Part shown: piece by piece, positions 54,016 to 64,000 of the stretch
Position numbering within the stretch: position 1 is the stretch's first letter
Layout of the letters: each line of letters begins with the position of its first letter
From: Fundidesulfovibrio putealis DSM 16056
Lineage (GTDB): Bacteria; Desulfobacterota; Desulfovibrionia; Desulfovibrionales; Desulfovibrionaceae
Length of the DNA stretch: 64,000 nucleotides
Direction of reading: 5' to 3'
Assembly: GCF_000429325.1 (NCBI RefSeq)
Contig: NZ_AUBQ01000003.1
Span: 310,001 to 374,000 of the forward strand
Notes under the pieces: model-generated
What the model saw: only the letters and a program-made list of their open reading frames with translations
The model's database searches: none
What the model was told of the DNA's origin: nothing
Program-made: the position numbers and the translations under genes

Positions 54016-55245
54016 ATGTCCTTCACGTGCGCGACATCCGCGCGCATCCCGTACCGACCGTTCCTGTTTCTTCTGCTCGTCCTGGCTGCGTCCTGCGGTT
54101 CCGAGGCGGAGGCCCCGCGCGGCCCCAAGGTCCTGGAGTGGGGCGAGGCCGGGCCGGGCGACGTGGTGCGCGTGGTGGAGGCCCAGGGCGTGATCCGGGC
54201 CAGGGACAAGGCCTTCATCCGGGTGGGCAGCCGCCTGAAGGGCCAGATCCTCAAGATGCACGTGCGCACCGGGGACGTGGTGCGGGCCGGGCAGCTGCTG
54301 GCCGAGCTGGACGACCGCGAACTCCAGACCCAGCGCAGGCAGGCCCAGGCCAGGCTGGACGCCGCACGCAACGAACTGGCCCGCATCGAGGCCCAGAGGC
54401 CCAGGCGCCTGGAAGAGGCCAGGGCCTCCCTGAGCGCGGAGCAGGGCAAGAACGAATACGCCCAGGGACTTAACCGCCGTCGCCAGACCCTGCGCGACTC
54501 CAGCCACATCCCCCAGTCCGACCTGGACCTCGCCCAGCGCGACGCCAAGTCCTCCGCCCAGTCTGTCGTTCAGGGCCGCGCGGTCCTGGGGCGCATCGAG
54601 AAGGAGTTCCAACACGACCAGGAGCGCGCCGCCAAAGCCGTGGACGAGGCCCAGGCAGCCGTGGCCCAGGTGGACGCCTTCCTGTCCATGACCCGCGTGG
54701 AAAGCCCCATGGACGCCATCGTCGGCCAGGTGCTCACCCAGGAGGGGGAGCTGGTTGTGGCCGAGGTGGAGACGGTGAAGATCCTGACGCTCATCGACCC
54801 CAGGCTCCTGGAACTCTGGATCTACATCAACGAGGCCGACGCCGCCGGGGTGCGTCCCGGCATGCCGGTGCGGTTCTTCATGCCCTCGCAGAAGCAGCAG
54901 GTGATGCTGGCCAAGGTGGAGCGCGTCTCGCCCGTGCCCGAACCTGTGGACAAGGTGCTCTACTATCCGGCCGTGGCCCTTCTGGGCGAGCAGGCCGGGC
55001 TGCTCCTGCGACCAGAGATGAACGTGCAGTGCTTCGTGCAGGTGGAGAACCTGACCGGGGTGCTCTCGGTGCCCAACGAGGCCGTGGTGGCCCAGGGCGG
55101 CAAGCGCCGGGTATACGTGGACGACGGGCGCGGCGCAGCGGTCGAGGTGCGGCCGGTGTTCGGGGTGCGCGGCTTGCAGCGCACGCAGGTGCTCTCCGGT
55201 CTGGACGCGGGCGCGCGCGTGGCCGTGAAGTTCGCCGGGCGCTAG
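54016..55245 (+). CDS. Efflux periplasmic adaptor lipoprotein (HlyD/RND family)
   Basis: A 409-residue membrane-fusion protein. The signal ends in the lipobox-like VLAASCGS (about residue 27), predicting a lipid anchor. Lipoyl and barrel domains surround a long coiled-coil hairpin (about 90-205, QRRQAQARLDAARNELARIEAQ), followed by the beta-barrel domain with LWIYINEADAAGVRPGMPV. The ATG at 54016 is preferred to a TTG at 53986. No RND pump, ABC permease or outer-membrane channel gene is adjacent, so its partner is elsewhere. Confidence 0.85.
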   Translation: MSFTCATSARIPYRPFLFLLLVLAASCGSEAEAPRGPKVLEWGEAGPGDVVRVVEAQGVIRARDKAFIRVGSRLKGQILKMHVRTGDVVRAGQLLAELDDRELQTQRRQAQARLDAARNELARIEAQRPRRLEEARASLSAEQGKNEYAQGLNRRRQTLRDSSHIPQSDLDLAQRDAKSSAQSVVQGRAVLGRIEKEFQHDQERAAKAVDEAQAAVAQVDAFLSMTRVESPMDAIVGQVLTQEGELVVAEVETVKILTLIDPRLLELWIYINEADAAGVRPGMPVRFFMPSQKQQVMLAKVERVSPVPEPVDKVLYYPAVALLGEQAGLLLRPEMNVQCFVQVENLTGVLSVPNEAVVAQGGKRRVYVDDGRGAAVEVRPVFGVRGLQRTQVLSGLDAGARVAVKFAGR

Positions 55246-55274
55246 GCCTGGGGCCTCATCACCCTGAGAGTTGG

Positions 55275-55300
55275 GCCGCCCTGGCGGCGGCTGGTGTTTT
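55275..55300 (+). terminator. Possible weak terminator after adaptor gene
   Basis: GCCGCC (55275-55280) and GGCGGC (55286-55291) form a six-base stem, followed by TGGTGTTTT. The T-run is offset from the stem by five bases. Confidence 0.3.
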
Positions 55301-55414
55301 GTGTCAGAATGCCAGCAAGGCCGAGCGACTGGACTCGATCGTCCGACTTGTGCCATGAATTTCTTTTCCCGGTCGTTCGACACGTTCTTGGATTCATAAC
55401 CCGGCGAGGTGACC

Positions 55415-56293
55415 ATGTTCGATTCCCTGGAGAGTGAACAGAAGCGGGCGCTGCGCAAGATGGCCGATCTGCGCAAGAAGCCCCATATTCCGGCCCAGCT
55501 TCTCACTCTGGTGGAAATAGTGATGAATCTGCAGAACGAAGCCCGCGCGAACGCTCCCGCCGTGGAGGCTCCGCGAGAGCTGCTGGCCACCGTGGATCAG
55601 GTGTTGCAAGGTGCGCCCCTGCTGGCGCGCGAAGCTTTCGTCTGCGACAGGGAGCAGGCGGCGGGCATTTACGGACGCCTGACAGAGGCGCTCTCCGGCA
55701 TGGGCGGCCCCATGGCCCAGGCCGCCGGGCTGGTGCGGGAGCAGGGCGACCAGCTGATGCGCGACGCTTTCGACGCCTTCATCAAAAACGACGCGGGCTT
55801 TTTCGCCGAGTTCGCCAAGCGCACCCCCAACGCGCCCAGGACGCTCAACTTTCTGGCCCAGTCCAGCCTGACGCCGGGCATCATGGCCCTGGCCGAGTCC
55901 ATTTCCAAACTGCTGCCGGAAAACCGGACCTGGGATCAGGGAACCTGCCCGCTGTGCGGCAGCCTGCCGTTTCATTCCTCCCTGGTGACCAAGGAAGGCG
56001 TGCGGGTGAACTCCTGCTCCTTCTGCCGGGCCGACTACCGCTCCTTCCGCCTGCAATGCGTTTACTGCCAGGAGCGAGACGCCCAGAAGCTCCCCTTCTT
56101 CACCGCCGACGAGGAGCCAGGCTACCGGGTGGACGCCTGCACCAGTTGCATGGGCTACATCAAGACCACGGATTTCCGCGAATTCGACCGCCCGAGCCTT
56201 CCGGCCCTGGATGATCTGGAGTCGCTGGCCTTGGACATCCTGGCAGTGAAGAAGGGCTTCATCCGGCCTACCGCCTCGGCCTGGGGGTTTTAA
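55415..56293 (+). CDS. fdhE: Formate dehydrogenase accessory protein FdhE
   Basis: A 292-residue FdhE-family protein required for active formate dehydrogenase; it binds the catalytic subunit before export. The N-terminal half is helical (1-160). The C-terminal half has rubredoxin-like CxxC motifs: CPLCG, CSFCR, CVYCQ and CTSCM, which bind iron or zinc. The ATG at 55415 follows GAGG; a GTG at 55409 is in frame. Formate dehydrogenase genes lie at the right edge of the window, about 7 kb away, in the opposite direction. Confidence 0.9.
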   Translation: MFDSLESEQKRALRKMADLRKKPHIPAQLLTLVEIVMNLQNEARANAPAVEAPRELLATVDQVLQGAPLLAREAFVCDREQAAGIYGRLTEALSGMGGPMAQAAGLVREQGDQLMRDAFDAFIKNDAGFFAEFAKRTPNAPRTLNFLAQSSLTPGIMALAESISKLLPENRTWDQGTCPLCGSLPFHSSLVTKEGVRVNSCSFCRADYRSFRLQCVYCQERDAQKLPFFTADEEPGYRVDACTSCMGYIKTTDFREFDRPSLPALDDLESLALDILAVKKGFIRPTASAWGF

Positions 56294-56377
56294 GACTCGC
56301 GAAACCGTCCGGGATGCTTCGGGTATCCCCTTGATGCGCCGGGCCTGCCGGTTTATGTGGTGTGCGAGGATGAAGCC

Positions 56378-57256
56378 ATGATCGAACGTCCAGCCACACC
56401 GCAGGAGACCGGCCTGTCCGGCGCGTTGCACGCAGGAGGCGCGTCAGCCTCCGGAGGGTACTCCGGGCTGTCGGAGTCCGAGGCGCGCGAGCTGGTGGCC
56501 GCCATCTGCCGCGACATCGGGGCCGCCGGATGCCCGCGTTGCCGGGCGGAGAAGGTGTACCGGCTGGGGTCGGGCCGGATGCGCTGCGGCGCGTGCGGCT
56601 ACACCTTCCAGGAGCTCACCGGGCGGTTCATGGGCATCGGCGGGCTGACCTGCGCCAAGTGGCTGGACCTTCTGGCCCTGTTCGCGGAGGAAACCCCGGT
56701 CAAGGAGGCAGCCCAAGCCTTGGGCGTGGCCTACAACACGGTCTACAAGGCCATGGACGCCCTGCGCCTGGCCATCCTGGCCCAGGCCATCGACGCCCGG
56801 CAGATCCGCAAGGCGCTTTCTCCTGGGAGGCCGGGTTCCTGGCCGCCGGTCTTCGGCATCATGGAGAATGAGAACTGGGTGTTCGTGGACCTGGTGCCGG
56901 ATGTGGACGCGGCGGACCTGACGCTTTTCAAACTGCATTTTCGCCTGAAGACCTCGCGGGTGGGCTCGGTTGTCTATACCGGCCCCATGCGGGGGTATCT
57001 GGGGCTGGTGTGCTGCGGCGGGCCGGAGTGGATCACCCAGGCGCTGCGCGCCAAGGACGAGAACATGCCGCTCGATGCGGACGGCGGGTTCTGGGCCTTT
57101 CTGAAAACTCGTCTGGGCCGCCTGCAAGGCGTCTCGGCCGAGAAGTTCCCGCTGTACCTCAAGGAAATGGAATTTCGCTGGAACCACCGCGACCATGACA
57201 TGCAGGACGAACTGACCCGCATCGCCCTGGCGTTCCGCCCCCTCGACGAGTGCTGA
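56378..57256 (+). CDS. Domesticated IS1595/ISXO2-like transposase-derived protein
   Basis: A 292-residue protein with a zinc ribbon (Cys52, 55, 70, 73), a helix-turn-helix-like region (VKEAAQALGVAYNTVYKAMDAL) and a domain resembling the ISXO2-type integrase fold of IS1595 transposases. Alignment by eye places the usual acidic residues at VYTG (normally VYTD), in the region FGIMENEN where the first acidic motif should be, and at DGGFWAFLKTRL (normally xIESFWSLLKR), so the catalytic set looks lost. The end EFRWNHRDHD is kept. The ATG at 56378 has GAGG. No flanking inverted repeats were found. It lies 84 bases after fdhE on the same strand. A DNA-binding regulator role is inferred. Confidence 0.7.
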   Translation: MIERPATPQETGLSGALHAGGASASGGYSGLSESEARELVAAICRDIGAAGCPRCRAEKVYRLGSGRMRCGACGYTFQELTGRFMGIGGLTCAKWLDLLALFAEETPVKEAAQALGVAYNTVYKAMDALRLAILAQAIDARQIRKALSPGRPGSWPPVFGIMENENWVFVDLVPDVDAADLTLFKLHFRLKTSRVGSVVYTGPMRGYLGLVCCGGPEWITQALRAKDENMPLDADGGFWAFLKTRLGRLQGVSAEKFPLYLKEMEFRWNHRDHDMQDELTRIALAFRPLDEC

Positions 57257-57318
57257 GCGCGCCGCGTTTTTCCCCACCCCCGCGCCATCTCTTCAAAATC
57301 ACGACCACTACGAACCCG

Positions 57319-57371
57319 TAAGGGTGTCCAGAGGGCGGAGCCCTTTGGCCGCCGGAGGCCATCTTCCAACA
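57319..57371. repeat. REP-like intergenic repeat element
   Basis: The sequence around 57319-57371 contains two short hairpins (AGGGCGGAGCCCT and GGCCGCCGGAGGCC). This combination is a common dispersed intergenic motif in Desulfovibrio and some other bacteria as I recall; copy number in this genome could not be tested here. Only one copy was seen in the window. Confidence 0.45.
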
Positions 57372-57454
57372 AACACCCCCTCTCGTCCTGGGCTACCCCC
57401 CCATTCTCCTATCCTCACGTTTCAGCCTCACGCCTCACTCCCCCGGCAAAAAAG

Positions 57455-57494
57455 AAAAAACGGCCCATCCTCCCGAAGGAGTGGGCCGTTTCCA
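57455..57494 (-). terminator. Intrinsic terminator of the RRM gene
   Basis: On the minus strand AAACGGCCCA (57483-57492 complement) pairs with the arm near 57460-57469, extended by CTCC/GGAG around loop TTCG, and is followed by a T-rich run. It lies just after the RRM gene. Confidence 0.85.
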
Positions 57495-57536
57495 ATGTGT
57501 TCAAACAGAACAGCGAAGCGCGTTGCGCTTCTCCTG

Positions 57537-57797
57537 TTACCAGCGCTCGCGGCGCTCGCGGGGGCGTGCCTCGTTCACCTTCATGGTGCGGCCGCCGCAG
57601 TCGGCGCCGTTCAGGGCCTGGATGGCCTCGGCGGCGCCGCCGTCCATTTCCACGAAGCCGAAGCCGCGGGGGCGGCCGGTCTCACGGTCGTTGATGAGCT
57701 TCACGGAGTTGACTTGTCCGTAGGCCTCGAACATCTGGCGCACTTGGTCTTCGGAGGCGCTGAAAGGCAGGTTCCCGACGTAAATGTTCGTCACCAT
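57537..57797 (-). CDS. RRM-domain RNA-binding protein
   Basis: An 86-residue single-RRM protein. RNP2 is IYVGNL and RNP1 is RGFGFVEM, with the usual beta-alpha-beta spacing (about 1-78). The basic tail RPRERRERW may bind RNA. Proteins of this type are common in Deltaproteobacteria and Cyanobacteria and are often cold-inducible. The start is either the ATG at 57797 or a TTG at 57803; the AAGGAG sits 11 or 5 bases away, so the TTG has better spacing. An untranslated region of nearly 280 bases separates it from the upstream gene, and a terminator follows it. Confidence 0.92.
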   Translation of the reverse strand: MVTNIYVGNLPFSASEDQVRQMFEAYGQVNSVKLINDRETGRPRGFGFVEMDGGAAEAIQALNGADCGGRTMKVNEARPRERRERW

Positions 57798-58078: not shown

Positions 58079-58801
58079 TCAGGAGGATTTCGACCCGAGA
58101 AGCTCGCGCAGGCCGTCCTCTTCGCTGGCGTGCAGGCTGGCCAGCACGGTGAGCCCGGCGGCCTCGAAAACGCGGCGGAAGTTCTGGGGTTTGCAGGCGA
58201 GGGCGGTCTTTCCGCCGCGCGTGGCCTGTTCGTGGATGATGCGCGTGAGCCCTGCGATGCCTGCCCCGTTGATGGAGGCGCATTCGGACACCGTGACCAG
58301 CAGCGGTCCGCCGCGCATGGTGGCGGCCAGTTCCAGCGCCACGTCGTCCAGGCCCGTGGAAAGATTGCCCGCGATGTCCAGCACGCGCACGCCCTCGGTT
58401 TCACGCAGCACCGAGGCGGGCTGGGCCTTTTCGCGCCGGTTGATGCGCTCGTCGGCGCGGCTGAGCGCACCTGCCAGCGCGGGTTGGGAAATGGGCTTGT
58501 CGATGAAGTCGGCGGCCTTCAGGTTGAGAGCGGTCAGGGCCAGATCCACGTCGCCGTGTCCGGTGATGACGATGACTTCGGTGGCCGGGCGGCTGGCTTT
58601 GATGCGCGAGAGCACCTCCATGCCGTCGATGCCGGGCATCTTGATGTCGGTCAGCACGATGGGAAAATCACCGCTTTCGAAGATCTCCAGGCCGCGTTCT
58701 CCTGAATCGGCGGACACCGGGGAGTAGCCCATGGCCTGAAGGAGCAGCTCGAACATGGCCAGCGTGGGCCTTTCGTCGTCGATAACCAGAACCTGTGTCA
58801 T
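58079..58801 (-). CDS. Response regulator with REC and STAS domains
   Basis: A 240-residue regulator. The receiver (1-120) has the acidic pocket Asp8/Asp9, phosphoacceptor Asp52 in VLTDIKMPG, Thr80 and Lys102. The C-terminal domain (about 130-230) is STAS-like (VRVLDIAGNLSTG, then LLVTVSECASINGAGIAGL). In anti-sigma antagonists the loop reads DSSG with a phosphorylatable serine; here it is NGAG, so control by serine phosphorylation is unlikely. There is no DNA-binding domain, so output is by protein binding. The ATG overlaps the kinase stop, so the two are a cognate pair. Confidence 0.85.
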   Translation of the reverse strand: MTQVLVIDDERPTLAMFELLLQAMGYSPVSADSGERGLEIFESGDFPIVLTDIKMPGIDGMEVLSRIKASRPATEVIVITGHGDVDLALTALNLKAADFIDKPISQPALAGALSRADERINRREKAQPASVLRETEGVRVLDIAGNLSTGLDDVALELAATMRGGPLLVTVSECASINGAGIAGLTRIIHEQATRGGKTALACKPQNFRRVFEAAGLTVLASLHASEEDGLRELLGSKSS

Positions 58802-60771
58802 GTTGCCTCGCGTTGAGAGGGCGGAAACAGGAGCTTGAAGGTGGTGCCTTCGCCCACCTCGCTGCCGACCTGAATCTCCCCCCCGTAATCCTTGATGATG
58901 CCGTAGGATATGGCCAGGCCGAGCCCCATCCCCTCACCGGCCCGTTTGGTGGTGAAGAAGGGCTCGAAAATCTTGCGCATGTCCTGGGGGGAAATGCCGC
59001 ATCCCGTGTCCGACACGCTTACGACCACTGAGCCGTCTTCCATGTAGGACCGGATGCCGATTTCCGCCACGTCCCGCTGGGAGGACAGTATTGCATCACG
59101 GGCATTGACCACAAGGTTGAAAAGCACCTGCTCCAGGCGGTTCGAGTGGGCGAGCACCGGGGGCAGGTTCTCGGCCAGGTCGAGCTCCACGGTGATGTTC
59201 TGAAGGGCCAGCTGCTTGCCGATGATGGTGAATACCCCCCGCACGGGCGTGTTGATGTCCACGGCGTCGGGGATGAGCTCGGACTTGCGGCCGAACTCGC
59301 GCAGATGGGAGATGATGCCTGCGGCGCGGTCTACCTGGGCGCTCATCTCGAAGGCCACCTGCTGGAAGCGTTCGCGGGGCAGGTCCAGGTTGTTTTCGGC
59401 GGCCAGTTTCAGGAAGTCGCTGCCCAGCTTGATGGCGTTCAGGGGCTGGTTCAGCTCATGGGCCATGCCCGCGCTCATCTCGCCCAGGGTCTTCATCTTG
59501 CTGGCCTGTATGAGCTGGGCGTCCTTTTCCACAAGCCCGGTCACGTCGGTGGCCGAGAAGATGACCACGTCCTTGCCCCGGTAGTGTGCCATGGTGGCGT
59601 GGATGTCCACGAAGATGCCCTTGCCCCCGCGGGTGACGTGTCCTGCCTTGGCGTACAATACGTGGTCTCCTGGCCCGCCGTCCTGCAGGAAGCGCTGCAC
59701 CCCCACGTAGCTGTCGGGGGGCTCGATGTCGGTGATGGTCATGGAGCCGAACTCGCGCTTGGTATAGCCGTAGAGCTCCTGGGCGCGCGGGTTGGCGTCC
59801 AGGAATCGCCTGGAGGACACGTCCAGCACCAGGAAGGGGTCGGGGTTGGCGTCGAAAAGGGGGCGGTAGCGCTCTTCGGACTCGCGCAGGCGGTGGCGGT
59901 AGAGCTTGATGGACCAGACCATGTTGGCGAAGGCGTCGGCCAGCTGGACCACCTCGTCGCCGCTTCGTTTCCGGTAGAACTTGCAGGGGTCGCAGGTGCG
60001 CGGCGGCAGGTCGCGGTCGGGGCCGAGCTCGTCCAGGTGCCAGCAGGGCAGGTCGGTGTCGCCGTAGGCCGGGCATTCCACGGGGTTCCAGGGGGGGCCT
60101 CCCAGGTCAAGGGGCTGGTCGAGCCTGCCACGGCTGATGGATTCGGCGGCCTTGGTCAGCTTGGAGAGCGGGTTGACCACATAGCCGGAAAGCCCCAGGG
60201 CTATCAGGAAGATGATGACCACCACCAGGGAGATGAAGCCCAAGAATGTCAGACGCAGCTTGCCTACGAGGGTGTCGATGTGGCTCTGCTTGAGGCCGAC
60301 GTGAACCCGGCCAAGAGTGTAGATGCCCTCCTGGATGGGCACGGAGATGTCCACCGCGTCGTAGCCCTCGACGCTGACCGGGCGCGACAGGGACTCCTGG
60401 CTGTCGCTGGGGTTGCGGGTGTCCAGAAGCTCTTTGGGGAACGGGCGGATGAACGTGTGGGCCAGCAGGTGGCCCTCGTTGTCCGTGAGGAAGATGTAGG
60501 CCACCAGGGCTTTGCGTTCGCCAAGCTGCGCGGCGTCGAAGATGAGCGCCACCAGTCCCGGCTGGTCCTTGTCCAGGATGTAGCCGCCGCCGCGCTCGGC
60601 GATGGACTGTGCGATGGCCGTGCCGCGAAGTTCCAGCTCGCGCGAAAGGCTGTTCACCAGGATGCCCCTGGCCAGAAGGGCGATCACTCCGCTTATGAGC
60701 AGCACCACGCCCACGGTAGCCAGGAATATCTTGTTGCGCAGGCTCAGCTTGCGCACACGGGTGAGCATCAT
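58798..60771 (-). CDS. Membrane histidine kinase with Cys-rich HAMP insert
   Basis: A 657-residue sensor kinase. A first helix (about 15-35), a periplasmic sensor (about 36-170) and a second helix (about 175-200) are followed by a HAMP interrupted by an insert with Cys233, Cys243, Cys260 and Cys263 (ECPAY, PCW, CDPC). This recalls the Cys-rich, CW-containing inserts seen in sulfate reducer sensors. A PAS lies near 300-410, then H-box His438 (MAHELNQPLNAI), N-box LFNLVVNARDAI and G-boxes. The insert could bind iron, a cluster or heme, making it a redox sensor. The start at 60771 follows GGAGG. Confidence 0.88.
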   Translation of the reverse strand: MMLTRVRKLSLRNKIFLATVGVVLLISGVIALLARGILVNSLSRELELRGTAIAQSIAERGGGYILDKDQPGLVALIFDAAQLGERKALVAYIFLTDNEGHLLAHTFIRPFPKELLDTRNPSDSQESLSRPVSVEGYDAVDISVPIQEGIYTLGRVHVGLKQSHIDTLVGKLRLTFLGFISLVVVIIFLIALGLSGYVVNPLSKLTKAAESISRGRLDQPLDLGGPPWNPVECPAYGDTDLPCWHLDELGPDRDLPPRTCDPCKFYRKRSGDEVVQLADAFANMVWSIKLYRHRLRESEERYRPLFDANPDPFLVLDVSSRRFLDANPRAQELYGYTKREFGSMTITDIEPPDSYVGVQRFLQDGGPGDHVLYAKAGHVTRGGKGIFVDIHATMAHYRGKDVVIFSATDVTGLVEKDAQLIQASKMKTLGEMSAGMAHELNQPLNAIKLGSDFLKLAAENNLDLPRERFQQVAFEMSAQVDRAAGIISHLREFGRKSELIPDAVDINTPVRGVFTIIGKQLALQNITVELDLAENLPPVLAHSNRLEQVLFNLVVNARDAILSSQRDVAEIGIRSYMEDGSVVVSVSDTGCGISPQDMRKIFEPFFTTKRAGEGMGLGLAISYGIIKDYGGEIQVGSEVGEGTTFKLLFPPSQREAT

Positions 60772-60870
60772 GGCAGCCTCCGCCGGAGGGCGCGCGTCAG
60801 AAGGCCCGCGCCGACGGAGCGCTGCGCGCGGGAACGGGCGCGGGCGTGGAACGGCATCATGGTCGCAGCC

Positions 60871-62142
60871 CTACGGGCAGTTCCGGCTGGCGAAGGGTTT
60901 GGACCAGTCCGTGACCAGCACGAAGCGGCCTTCCTCCAGCTTGGTGAAGTACACACGCTCCAGGCCCTGGTGGTCACCCGGAGCGTAGGCCAGGGTGTTG
61001 GCCAGTCCCAGCGAGTAATCCCTGATGGACTCCACGGAATCGATGAAGCGTTCCCGGTCCAGGTCCGGCCCGGCCCGGCGAAGCCCCTCCACCAGCACCT
61101 TGGCGTTGATGAAGCCTTCCAGGCCAACCGCAGTGGGCGCGTGGCCGGGGAAGGACTGGCGCAACAGATCCTCGTATTCGCGTACGCCCCACAGAAGGGC
61201 GCGGGTTTCCGGCAGGTCCGGCGGGGGCATCACCTGGGAGACCAGCACGCGGGCTTTCTCGCGGGGGCCGAGCATGCGGGCGATCTCCTCAGCGCCCACG
61301 AAGGACACCGCGTAGAAGACCAGCTCAGGGTTTCGCTCCATGGCCAATTGGATGAACTTGGCCGAGGGTGCGGATGTGCCGATGATGACCACTGCCTGGG
61401 CCTTGCTCTCCAGAATCTTGGCAAGCCCCTCTTCCACGTCCATGGTGCCGCGCGCGTAGGAGCCTCTGGCCACCGGGGCCATGCTGTAGCCGCGAAGGGC
61501 CAGCTCCGCGCCTTTCAGGCCGTCGAAGCCGTAGGCGTCGTACTGATAGAACACGCCGATGCGCTCCAGGCCCAGGTCCTCCACCAGGTGCTCAACGGCC
61601 GAGGCCGTCTCCTGGTAGTAGGAGGGGCGGACGTTTATCACGTAGCGCTGGAACGGCACGCGCAGGTCGTAGGCTCCGGTGAAGGCCCCCACCAGCGGGA
61701 TTCTGGCCTCCACCAGCATGGGCAGGATCTTGGTGGTTGTGGGCGTGCCCACGTAGCAGGACAGGGCGAACACCTGGTCCTCGATGATCAGGCGCTGGGT
61801 GTTGTCCACGCAGCGGGGTGGATCGTAGCCGTCGTCGCGGGTGATGAGCGAGATGGTGCGCCCGTGGACGCCGCCGCGCGCGTTGACGTGGGCCAGGTAC
61901 GAGGCTGCCCCGCGCAGGGTCTCCTGACCCAGATAGGCTGCGTGTCCCGAGAGGGGCAGGCTGGCCCCGATGCGGATCTCCGTGGCGCTGACCCCCTGTC
62001 GTCCGGTCTGGGGAGCCGGAGGGGGCGTTGGCTCGCAGGCGGCCAGCAGCGCGGTCAGGCCCGCCAGGAGCGTCAGGAGCAGGAAGCGCAAAAGCCCGCA
62101 GCCGGAACCGTCCCTTGTGGTTCTGTCCTGCCATGCGCTCAT
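60871..62142 (-). CDS. Periplasmic binding lipoprotein, branched-chain-type (orphan)
   Basis: A 423-residue type I periplasmic-binding-fold protein (Peripla_BP_6 / LivJ-like). The signal ends in the lipobox-like ALLAACEP (about residue 36). The ligand-binding core has IRIGASLPLSGHAAYLG, LISVITRDDGYDP-type order and FALSCYVGTPTTTKILP. No ABC permease or ATPase is nearby, and the gene sits between a peroxiredoxin and a histidine kinase. It may present a ligand to the kinase rather than import it, as in binding-protein-dependent two-component sensors. Its ATG overlaps the peroxiredoxin stop (ATGA). Confidence 0.85.
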   Translation of the reverse strand: MSAWQDRTTRDGSGCGLLRFLLLTLLAGLTALLAACEPTPPPAPQTGRQGVSATEIRIGASLPLSGHAAYLGQETLRGAASYLAHVNARGGVHGRTISLITRDDGYDPPRCVDNTQRLIIEDQVFALSCYVGTPTTTKILPMLVEARIPLVGAFTGAYDLRVPFQRYVINVRPSYYQETASAVEHLVEDLGLERIGVFYQYDAYGFDGLKGAELALRGYSMAPVARGSYARGTMDVEEGLAKILESKAQAVVIIGTSAPSAKFIQLAMERNPELVFYAVSFVGAEEIARMLGPREKARVLVSQVMPPPDLPETRALLWGVREYEDLLRQSFPGHAPTAVGLEGFINAKVLVEGLRRAGPDLDRERFIDSVESIRDYSLGLANTLAYAPGDHQGLERVYFTKLEEGRFVLVTDWSKPFASRNCP

Positions 62143-62780
62143 TTCAGACTCGACAGGGCTTGGGACACCTTGCCCAGGTCGGGGCGCAGGTTGATGTCGC
62201 TCACGTCGATGAACCGGATGACGCCTTGCTTGTCGATGATGAAGATGGCCCGCTCGGACGTGCCGTCCGAGCGCAGCACGCCGAACTTTTTGGACAGGCC
62301 GCCGTGTGGCCAGAAGTCCGAGGCCACCGGGAACCACACCCCGCCCATCTCCACAATCCAGGCGTTGAGCGAAGGGATGTTGTCGCAGCTGATGCCGATG
62401 AGCACCGCATCCCTGGATTCGAACACCTCGCGCGCGAAGTTGTAGCCGGGCCACTGGCCGGAGCAGACCGGGGTCCAGGCCGCAGGGATGAAGGAGAGCA
62501 CCACGTTCTTCTTACCCAGGTAGTCGGCCAGGGCCACGCGCTTGCCGTTAATGCCCGGAAGGTCGAAGTCGGGGGCCTTGTCCCCGACCTTGACCGCTAG
62601 TTGGCTGTCCACGGGCTTCAGCTGTCCCGGCTGGTAGATGAGGGCGGTGGGGATGGGAGCTCCCGGAGTTTTTGCGGGCAAGCCCTGGGCGTGCGCCTCC
62701 CAGTGCGGGAGCGCGGCCAGCCCCAGGCAAAGCGTGAGCGCGGCCAAAAAACGCAGGGCGGATGCGGAACCCACGGGCAT
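62139..62780 (-). CDS. Exported peroxiredoxin (AhpC/TSA family)
   Basis: A 213-residue peroxidase with a signal peptide (about 1-31, ending AHA). The AhpC/TSA fold has VGDKAPDFDLPGINGKRV, the peroxidatic cysteine Cys106 in AAWTPVCSGQ, and a second cysteine Cys132 in IGISCDN. The conserved threonine two residues before the Cys is kept (TPVC). It reduces hydrogen peroxide or organic peroxides in the periplasm, drawing electrons from a thiol partner. The ATG at 62780 has AAGGAG. It starts one base after the TlpA-like gene and overlaps the binding protein, so the three are coupled. Confidence 0.9.
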   Translation of the reverse strand: MPVGSASALRFLAALTLCLGLAALPHWEAHAQGLPAKTPGAPIPTALIYQPGQLKPVDSQLAVKVGDKAPDFDLPGINGKRVALADYLGKKNVVLSFIPAAWTPVCSGQWPGYNFAREVFESRDAVLIGISCDNIPSLNAWIVEMGGVWFPVASDFWPHGGLSKKFGVLRSDGTSERAIFIIDKQGVIRFIDVSDINLRPDLGKVSQALSSLK

Positions 62781-62781
62781 C

Positions 62782-63378
62782 TTATTTCTCCTTGGAAAGT
62801 CCGGTCTTCTCCAGGGCGGTGTTCAGGAAGGCCTCGGCCGAGGTGACGCAGCCGAGCTGGGTGTCCACGATGACGAAGCCGTCACCCTGGCGTTTGAGCA
62901 CGTAGTAGAAAGGCGTCCCCACCTGCCCCAGCAGCTTGTAGGCCGCAAAGTCCTGATCAGGGATCAGGGGGAAGGGGGTGGAGAACTTCTCGCGGAACAC
63001 GTTCACCTCGAAGGGGGAGTTGCCCGCGCCCAGCCCCACCAGCCTGATCTTGCCGGAAAGCCCCTTGGACTTGATGAGCGTGTGCATCTTGTTCAGCTCC
63101 GGGGCCTCCTTCTGGCAGAAGGGGCAGTACATGGAGAAGACCACCAGGATGACTGCCTGGGCCTTGGTCTGCTGGAGCGTGAAGGGCTTGCCCCCGGCTC
63201 CCGCGCCGAGTTCCTTGGCTTCCTTTTCCAGGATCGGCCCGGCGAAGGTGACGTCCGGGAAGGTCTGTCCCACGGGCAAAGGCTTCATGTCCGCCGAAGT
63301 GGTGGCGCCGGAGGCGAAAACGTCATGTGACGAGAACAGCAGAAGAATGAGAAGAGGAAGGAAGGCTACGGCTTTCAT
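62782..63378 (-). CDS. TlpA-like periplasmic thioredoxin-fold protein
   Basis: A 198-residue protein with a signal peptide (1-22, ending VFA). The thioredoxin-fold motif is Cys85-Pro-Phe-Cys88 in FSMYCPFCQKEAPELNKMHTLI, with a cis-proline region GTPFYYVL. It is a thiol-disulfide reductase of the TlpA/ResA style and the likely electron donor to the peroxiredoxin next door. The ATG at 63378 is preferred because GAGG lies five bases upstream; an in-frame start at 63441 would lack it. It is the first gene of a leftward operon. Confidence 0.88.
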   Translation of the reverse strand: MKAVAFLPLLILLLFSSHDVFASGATTSADMKPLPVGQTFPDVTFAGPILEKEAKELGAGAGGKPFTLQQTKAQAVILVVFSMYCPFCQKEAPELNKMHTLIKSKGLSGKIRLVGLGAGNSPFEVNVFREKFSTPFPLIPDQDFAAYKLLGQVGTPFYYVLKRQGDGFVIVDTQLGCVTSAEAFLNTALEKTGLSKEK

Positions 63379-63628
63379 TGGGGCCTCACAGGTGTTGTAT
63401 TCGGAAGCATACCTCAGAATAGCGCGAGCTTCCACTTTCAATTGCCGCCGCCGGGAAAAGAAAGCAGGCGGCAGCAGGTTGGCATGGCTGCCGCAGAAAA
63501 TCAGAAACGGCGGACCGGACCCGACCGGTTCCTGTGGTGGGAGGTCCAGTCCCGCTCGGAATCGGTCGGCGTGTCCGGCCCGCCGTCATGTGGAAGAGAA
63601 ACGTCCTGCATTCGATGGGGGGTCGAAA

Positions 63629-63672: not shown

Positions 63673-64000
63673 CTAGCCCCGCGCCTGGCGCACGGGTCCC
63701 AGCAGTTTGTCCAGGGCGGCGAGGCGGGTATACATCTTGGGCCCGCCAGCATCCGACATGAGGGTTTTGTGGTACAGGTTGGGCGCGTGTTCGGTCAGGA
63801 ACACCACCCGCACCTGGTCATAATCCACCAGCACGGCCTTGGGGTTGGTCTTCTTGAGCTCTTCGAAACGCTTCTTGGCCATGGCCAGCATCTCGTCGCG
63901 CTCTCCGAAGTTCATGGCCCCGGTCGGGCAGGTCTTCACGCAGGCTGGCAACTGACCGGAGAGGACGCGGTCGTTGCACATGTCGCACTTGCTGATGACC
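63673..64000 (-). CDS. Formate dehydrogenase iron-sulfur subunit, C-terminal part (partial)
   Basis: About 108 codons at the right edge, cut at the N-terminal side. The remaining chain has the ferredoxin motifs KCDMCNDR and PACVKTCPTGAMNFG that hold [4Fe-4S] clusters, then a helical tail with VRVVFLTEHAPNLYH. This is the pattern of the beta (FdhB/FdnH-like) subunit of periplasmic formate dehydrogenases in Desulfovibrio. The catalytic alpha subunit should lie upstream, outside the window. fdhE at 55415 would support its maturation. A related molybdopterin oxidoreductase subunit cannot be excluded. Confidence 0.82.
   Translation of the reverse strand, partial: VISKCDMCNDRVLSGQLPACVKTCPTGAMNFGERDEMLAMAKKRFEELKKTNPKAVLVDYDQVRVVFLTEHAPNLYHKTLMSDAGGPKMYTRLAALDKLLGPVRQARG

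Follow-up and report, generated by a model that had tools for sequence, protein, structure and literature searches.

A transposase-derived gene downstream of fdhE

The window, a stretch of 64,000 nucleotides from the genome of Fundidesulfovibrio putealis DSM 16056, carries on its plus strand an fdhE-like gene (55415..56293) followed by a transposase-derived gene (56378..57256), referred to here as HOM. The fdhE-like gene matches PF24860 above the cut-off of that family, and TIGR01562 at 1.1e-18 (67.8 bits vs. a cut-off of 187.65). Its stop codon ends at 56293 and is separated by an 84-base gap from the HOM frame, which is intact, running from the ATG at 56378 to the stop at 57254-57256 and encoding 292 amino acids; a GTG at 56357, also in frame, is an alternative, longer start. 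The first-pass annotation had described an intact gene 84 bases after fdhE on the same strand, and both the frame and the gap are as it gave them. In Pfam, HOM matches the DDE-type family PF12762 (DDE_Tnp_IS1595; 8.9e-9, 36 bits, cut-off 27), with the match beginning only at model position 36. The match to the zinc-ribbon family PF12760 (4.1e-5, 23.9 bits) lies slightly below the cut-off of 25.4, the match to HTH_23 (9.3e-4) is likewise below its cut-off, and the score against the IS1595 equivalog of NCBIfam, NF033547, is 38.4 bits, short of the cut-off of 75. PDB sequence searches returned weak matches only, chiefly to ribosomal zinc ribbons, and the AlphaFold model, built from two sequences, has a mean pLDDT of 37.9. 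A scan of 55240-57520 for promoters and terminators gave nothing exceeding chance.

The fdhAB genes of this genome are located approximately 7-8 kb from HOM, on the opposite strand. Part of fdhB, found by tblastn and genome search and named by eye from its sequence, occupies 63673..63981 of the minus strand, and fdhA lies past the window end (C1:374416-376851). Adjoining fdhB on the minus strand are peroxiredoxin-like and thioredoxin-like genes (62139-63441, named by eye), and a similar pair, of the AhpC-TSA family, follows the HOM homologue of one other locus (L044). Response-regulator, histidine-kinase and periplasmic-binding-protein-like genes, also identified by eye, are found at 58079-62454 on the same strand as fdhB and might constitute a sensing system of the fdh cluster.

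Loss of the catalytic site and retention of the DNA-binding parts

A search of the phylum yielded two full-length relatives with intact motifs (L146 and L149), of which L146 served as the reference for the catalytic motifs: it contains VEVDESYFGG, IVYTD and NGLEGFW and matches PF12762 at 1.4e-38. In the alignment of HOM with L146, all three catalytic acids are gone. The loop that holds the first Asp (DESYFGG...) is deleted at 56813..56842, as the late start of the PF12762 match also indicates; VYTG replaces VYTD at 56972..56983, with loss of the second Asp; and GGFW stands in place of EGFW/ESFW at 57083..57094, with loss of the catalytic Glu. The latter two replacements had been proposed in the first-pass annotation, and the alignment adds the deleted loop to them. 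The annotation had further held that HOM keeps the zinc ribbon, a helix-turn-helix (HTH)-like segment and the EFRWNHR end of ISXO2/IS1595 proteins, which the Pfam matches (below cut-off for the ribbon and the HTH) and the L146 alignment bear out: the ribbon cysteines C52, C55, C70 and C73 are encoded at 56531..56596, the HTH segment (residues 97-126) at 56666..56755, and EFRWNHR at 57170..57190, all, like the altered sites, on the plus strand. By homology, then, the DNA-binding parts of HOM are kept.

The same division was apparent among 96 homologues, that is, the 102 loci described below minus three true transposases (L109, L111 and L112), one duplicate (L052, the same as L003), one sequence extracted out of frame at its start (L099) and one fragment (L102). 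All four zinc-ribbon cysteines are present in 96/96 homologues, and an intact D, D, E in 0/96. Averaged over the homologues, identity to L146 reaches 0.64 for the zinc ribbon, 0.46 for the HTH (L146 residues 75-112) and 0.55 for the C-terminal end, but drops to 0.11 for the first-Asp loop and 0.28 near the Glu. Among the members of one alignment (A1), the zinc-ribbon family is matched by 10/10 and the DDE family by 4/10. The second Asp is kept in 60 of the 96 homologues and a Glu occupies the third column in 4, whereas no DESYFGG-like loop was found in any, the alignment of the first column being loose. In 13 of the 96, an acid of some kind is present in all three aligned catalytic columns, several of these being D/D/D, so that loss of the chemistry is proven for some members of the family at most, and not for all. 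These 13, together with the frequent second Asp, would fit a host nuclease or recombinase that still acts on DNA through a rebuilt active site; domesticated RAYT-type transposases are thought to act on DNA in such a capacity. However, the missing loop throughout the homologues, the lack of all three acids in HOM itself and the failure to find terminal repeats around it (55900-57700) make this explanation highly improbable.

Fixed position and purifying selection

Some inverted repeats occur within 55900-57700, and none with arms of at least 14 bases brackets HOM, in agreement with the earlier statement that terminal repeats are not found. HOM is the sole PF12762 match in its own genome, where near-identical copies were not found and the next best protein match, on another contig, shows 29% identity over 105 residues. 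Many near-identical copies at random positions, which the first-pass annotation had named as evidence to the contrary, were thus not encountered. Among 20 close pairs chosen by hand, dN/dS ranged from 0.04 to 0.37 with a median of about 0.10 (dS exceeded 1.3 in four of them), indicative of purifying selection. In profile searches that may include active-type relatives in their counts, the order contributed 158 matching genomes out of 297 (at 1e-30) and the phylum 25 out of 395 (at 1e-15).

Given the matches in the order and the low dN/dS, we rejected a recent insertion or a pseudogene. A functionless, decaying IS remnant would likewise have lost its catalytic residues and its terminal repeats, but would not be expected to show this distribution, a conserved neighbourhood and low dN/dS, and we assign it a negligible probability. 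Purifying selection combined with conservation through the order supports co-option, as had been suggested for HOM from the first, and the identification of HOM as a domesticated IS1595/ISXO2 transposase is well supported. Its domain order (zinc ribbon, HTH, DDE-type domain), the C-terminal EFR[WYF]NHR and the homology to L146 are those of IS1595/ISXO2 transposases, from which it differs in having no intact DDE, in its fixed position, and in that neither terminal repeats nor near-identical copies were found.

Linkage to formate dehydrogenase genes

We compared the occurrence of HOM and FdhA in 199 genomes of the family. HOM matches at 1e-5 were identified in 130 genomes; of these, 115 were strong, at 3.7e-26 or below, and 15 were weaker; one of the weaker matches (L112), the best in its genome (G168), was a true transposase. 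FdhA (E up to 1e-100) was detected in 157 genomes, including 115/115 of those with a strong homologue, and a strong homologue was present in 0/42 genomes that lack FdhA (Fisher p = 7e-20 for the 199 genomes, with relatedness ignored). Conversely, 42 of the 157 FdhA-bearing genomes have no strong homologue, which implies that HOM is dispensable for formate dehydrogenase as such.

We further examined the surroundings of HOM homologues in 102 loci, for which stretches of mostly ~16 kb were fetched: 80 places in the family hand-picked from a ranked list, 20 from other families of the order, and L003 and L173. The three true transposases had no marker of any kind nearby. For the remaining 99 inactive-type loci (L052, which repeats L003, L099 and L102 being retained in this count), fdh markers were found within the stretch in 85, nrfH within 1.5 kb in 10, and an RND efflux operon in 1; three had none of these (L044, which adjoins moeA, L096 and L219). 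Conservation of the fdhE neighbourhood had been proposed as a check; the gene's neighbourhood is conserved, and chance linkage of HOM with fdh was rejected on the basis of the co-occurrence with FdhA and these neighbourhood counts. Of the 85 fdh loci, 53 have fdhA in the same orientation at 1-4.5 kb downstream of the HOM-type gene, and 48 have a co-oriented fdhE upstream; the fullest layout is fdhE-fdhD-mobA-moaA-gene-small ORF-fdhA-fdhB. In 18 of the 85, fdhA is on the opposite strand, and in the window it is likewise on the other strand, at a distance of ~7 kb; we count this against a regulatory role.

Paralogues beside other operons

In the ten loci with nrfH, the HOM-type copy lies directly upstream of this NapC/NirT-type cytochrome gene and on the same strand (10/10), and nrfH is followed by nrfA in 3 and by a gene for an octahaem HAO-like cytochrome in 7; the neighbours were named by Pfam in four of these loci (PF03264, PF02335 and PF13447). 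The nrf/HAO-type copies are approximately 29-36% identical to HOM (43% in one short match) and bear extra cysteines. The window's own genome contains a distant inactive paralogue (C8:131175-131987, minus strand; L173:7173-7991), which immediately precedes, in the same orientation, an RND efflux operon with outer-membrane efflux and ACR_tran genes. In a tree obtained by quick search, in which long branches were flagged and the window's genus sits on one, six active-type proteins separate from the rest (SH-aLRT 97), nine nrf/HAO copies cluster (98), and so do 16 of 17 copies associated with a second fdh (99); the entries labelled hao_L079, cus_L080 and cus_L081 are fdh loci.

These paralogues bear on the possibility that HOM is a zinc-ribbon protein with an accessory or maturation role, one that aids FdhE, FdhD or the cofactor genes in formate dehydrogenase assembly and reuses the transposase scaffold for protein contacts. 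In many loci the homologues are surrounded by fdhE, fdhD, mobA and moaA genes, which, like the co-occurrence with FdhA, would be compatible with such a role. The role, however, predicts exclusive occurrence with formate dehydrogenase. Contrary to this prediction, members of the family also adjoin nrfHA operons, operons of the HAO-like type and an RND efflux operon, systems that are not known to contain a molybdopterin cofactor. Considering also the retained HTH part and the FdhA-bearing genomes without a strong homologue, we judge a maturation role to be unlikely.

Palindromes near promoters

Two palindromes were considered as candidate operators. In 80 fetched loci (1.30 Mb) plus L003, which L052 repeats, TATGYYA-N4-TRRCATA occurs at 16 sites, all of them upstream of fdhA (10), fdhE (4) or the HOM-type gene (2). 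Across the family, it is found in 66 of 199 genomes (for example, L040, L049, L134 and L138) and is commoner than the reversed control. Among the places listed, the neighbours of 20 sites located away from the fetched loci, judged by eye, resemble genes for tungstate uptake (L134 and L138), aldehyde oxidoreductase-type genes (L126 and L131), fmdE (L127 and L141) and fdhA (L139 and L129), the others having no clear neighbour. One of these sites (L134) belongs to a genome (G008) with neither a HOM-type gene nor FdhA, and another (L129), at fdhA, to a genome that is 72% complete and has no HOM-type gene (G033). We rejected this palindrome as the HOM operator, since genomes that lack a HOM-type gene carry it as well, and since it is also found at further genes of Mo/W-related appearance. 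It is probably the site of a Mo/W regulator, presumably of the TaoR, TunR or ModE type.

The second palindrome, ATATGTRT-N8-AYACATAT, is itself near-perfect. In 297 genomes it was found at only 6 places, in every case between a second-fdh copy and the fdhA that goes with it (L055, L056, L059, L076, L091 and L094). Within this interval, a gene with a LysR-type HTH is present in all five of the six loci that were displayed (PF00126 for L055). Other regulators are equally good or better candidates for both palindromes, and neither is taken as the HOM operator; alignment of flanking sequences within two sets of related genomes revealed no HOM-specific palindrome. The lack of an operator in the loci searched, along with the retained DNA-binding parts, would suit a DNA-binding protein that exerts no specific control, for instance a protein of nucleoid or insulator type that came to reside next to these operons. 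The attachment of the copies to particular operon types argues against this, and we regard it as very unlikely.

A proposed family of local regulators

From the kept DNA-binding parts and the paralogues beside unrelated operons, we infer that HOM and its relatives act as regulators rather than as accessory factors. The adjacent operons share little beyond anaerobic respiration or metal handling, so that local control of the operon is the simplest common role. We therefore favour, with a probability of roughly 0.65, the reading that each of these proteins is a local regulator of transcription devoted to the operon beside it. An IS1595/ISXO2-type transposase would have been domesticated in the order of Desulfovibrio-like bacteria, losing the DDE chemistry and keeping the zinc ribbon and HTH, the parts by which a transposase would recognize the transposon ends, and the remaining scaffold of the catalytic domain. 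Copies would then have settled permanently next to single operons: the principal fdhAB/fdhE cluster, an additional fdhAB, and a pair of nrfHA or HAO-like type; the genome of the window adds the case of the RND efflux operon. Each copy is predicted to bind a nearby promoter and thereby to control that operon; the dead catalytic domain may mediate dimerization or other contacts. A sensor of metal or redox state might be provided by the zinc site or, in the nrf/HAO class, by the additional cysteines. The data show the homology, the lost triad, the conserved linkage and the purifying selection; binding to DNA, the target promoter, the direction of control and any signal are what we infer. For the more far-reaching proposition, that a single IS transposase, through loss of catalysis and repeated duplication, gave rise to dedicated transcription factors across the order, each wired to the adjoining anaerobic respiratory or efflux operon with the zinc/cysteine site as its sensor, we consider the odds to be about even.

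Mobile-element proteins that have been recruited as regulators are already known (PMC8987985; TldR, PMC13418256). TldR resembles the proposed case in that a transposon-encoded nuclease became a transcription factor, but it is phage-encoded and derives from the RNA-guided TnpB lineage, whereas HOM belongs to a DDE-type lineage with a zinc ribbon and HTH. Ner/SfsB and the antitoxin-derived regulators are likewise DNA-binding proteins of mobile elements recruited for host control (PMC8987985), but are Xre-type HTH or RHH proteins and not transposases. PMC10102598 mentions Rajeev 2019 on the regulation of Mo/W genes in related bacteria. Regulators of the TaoR/TunR/ModE type are likely candidates for binding the palindromes found here. 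These regulators control genes for Mo/W enzymes and transport in related bacteria, have DNA-binding domains other than that of HOM, and are not known to contain a transposase core. No description of the HOM family was found in the literature searched, including PMC4215793, PMC10102598, PMC3431258, PMC8987985, PMC4287179, PMC10533852 and PMC8836040, in which subscription papers are thinly covered.

If the regulatory reading is true, a family of bacterial regulators derived from a DDE transposase has been concealed by the annotation 'transposase'. Among the key enzymes of energy metabolism in these bacteria are formate dehydrogenase and nitrite reductase. The control of each copy is known only in part, and a family prone to the automatic label 'transposase' may contain their local regulators. 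It would also add a case of DDE-transposase exaptation in which the steps of domestication are testable, because inactive paralogues accompany different operons and other lineages retain relatives of the active type.

Other features of the fdhA neighbourhood

The uncharacterised, copper-responsive gene Dde_0715, near fdhA (Dde_0717), may or may not be a HOM gene. An IS1595-like transposase gene adjoins genes that look like molybdopterin-binding and aldehyde oxidoreductase genes in one contig (L126 and L176; G031:C3), with a TATGYYA palindrome between them. A pattern search identified a small conserved ORF (~55-80 amino acids) that ends 21-74 bases ahead of fdhA in 45 of 88 loci, for example at L003:8933-9139 (plus strand) and, outside the window, in the window's genus (L114-L119). 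Its motif ..PF.GLGFDL.PV.. resembles FGGLGFDL of the FdhA Tat signal, and LGREIRGR is a frequent ending; the L003 copy had no Pfam match at 0.01. Finally, in six of six aligned genomes of the window's genus (L114-L119), the block GTGTCA.A..N..G.AAG is present approximately 300-420 bases before fdhA, ahead of promoter-like sequence.
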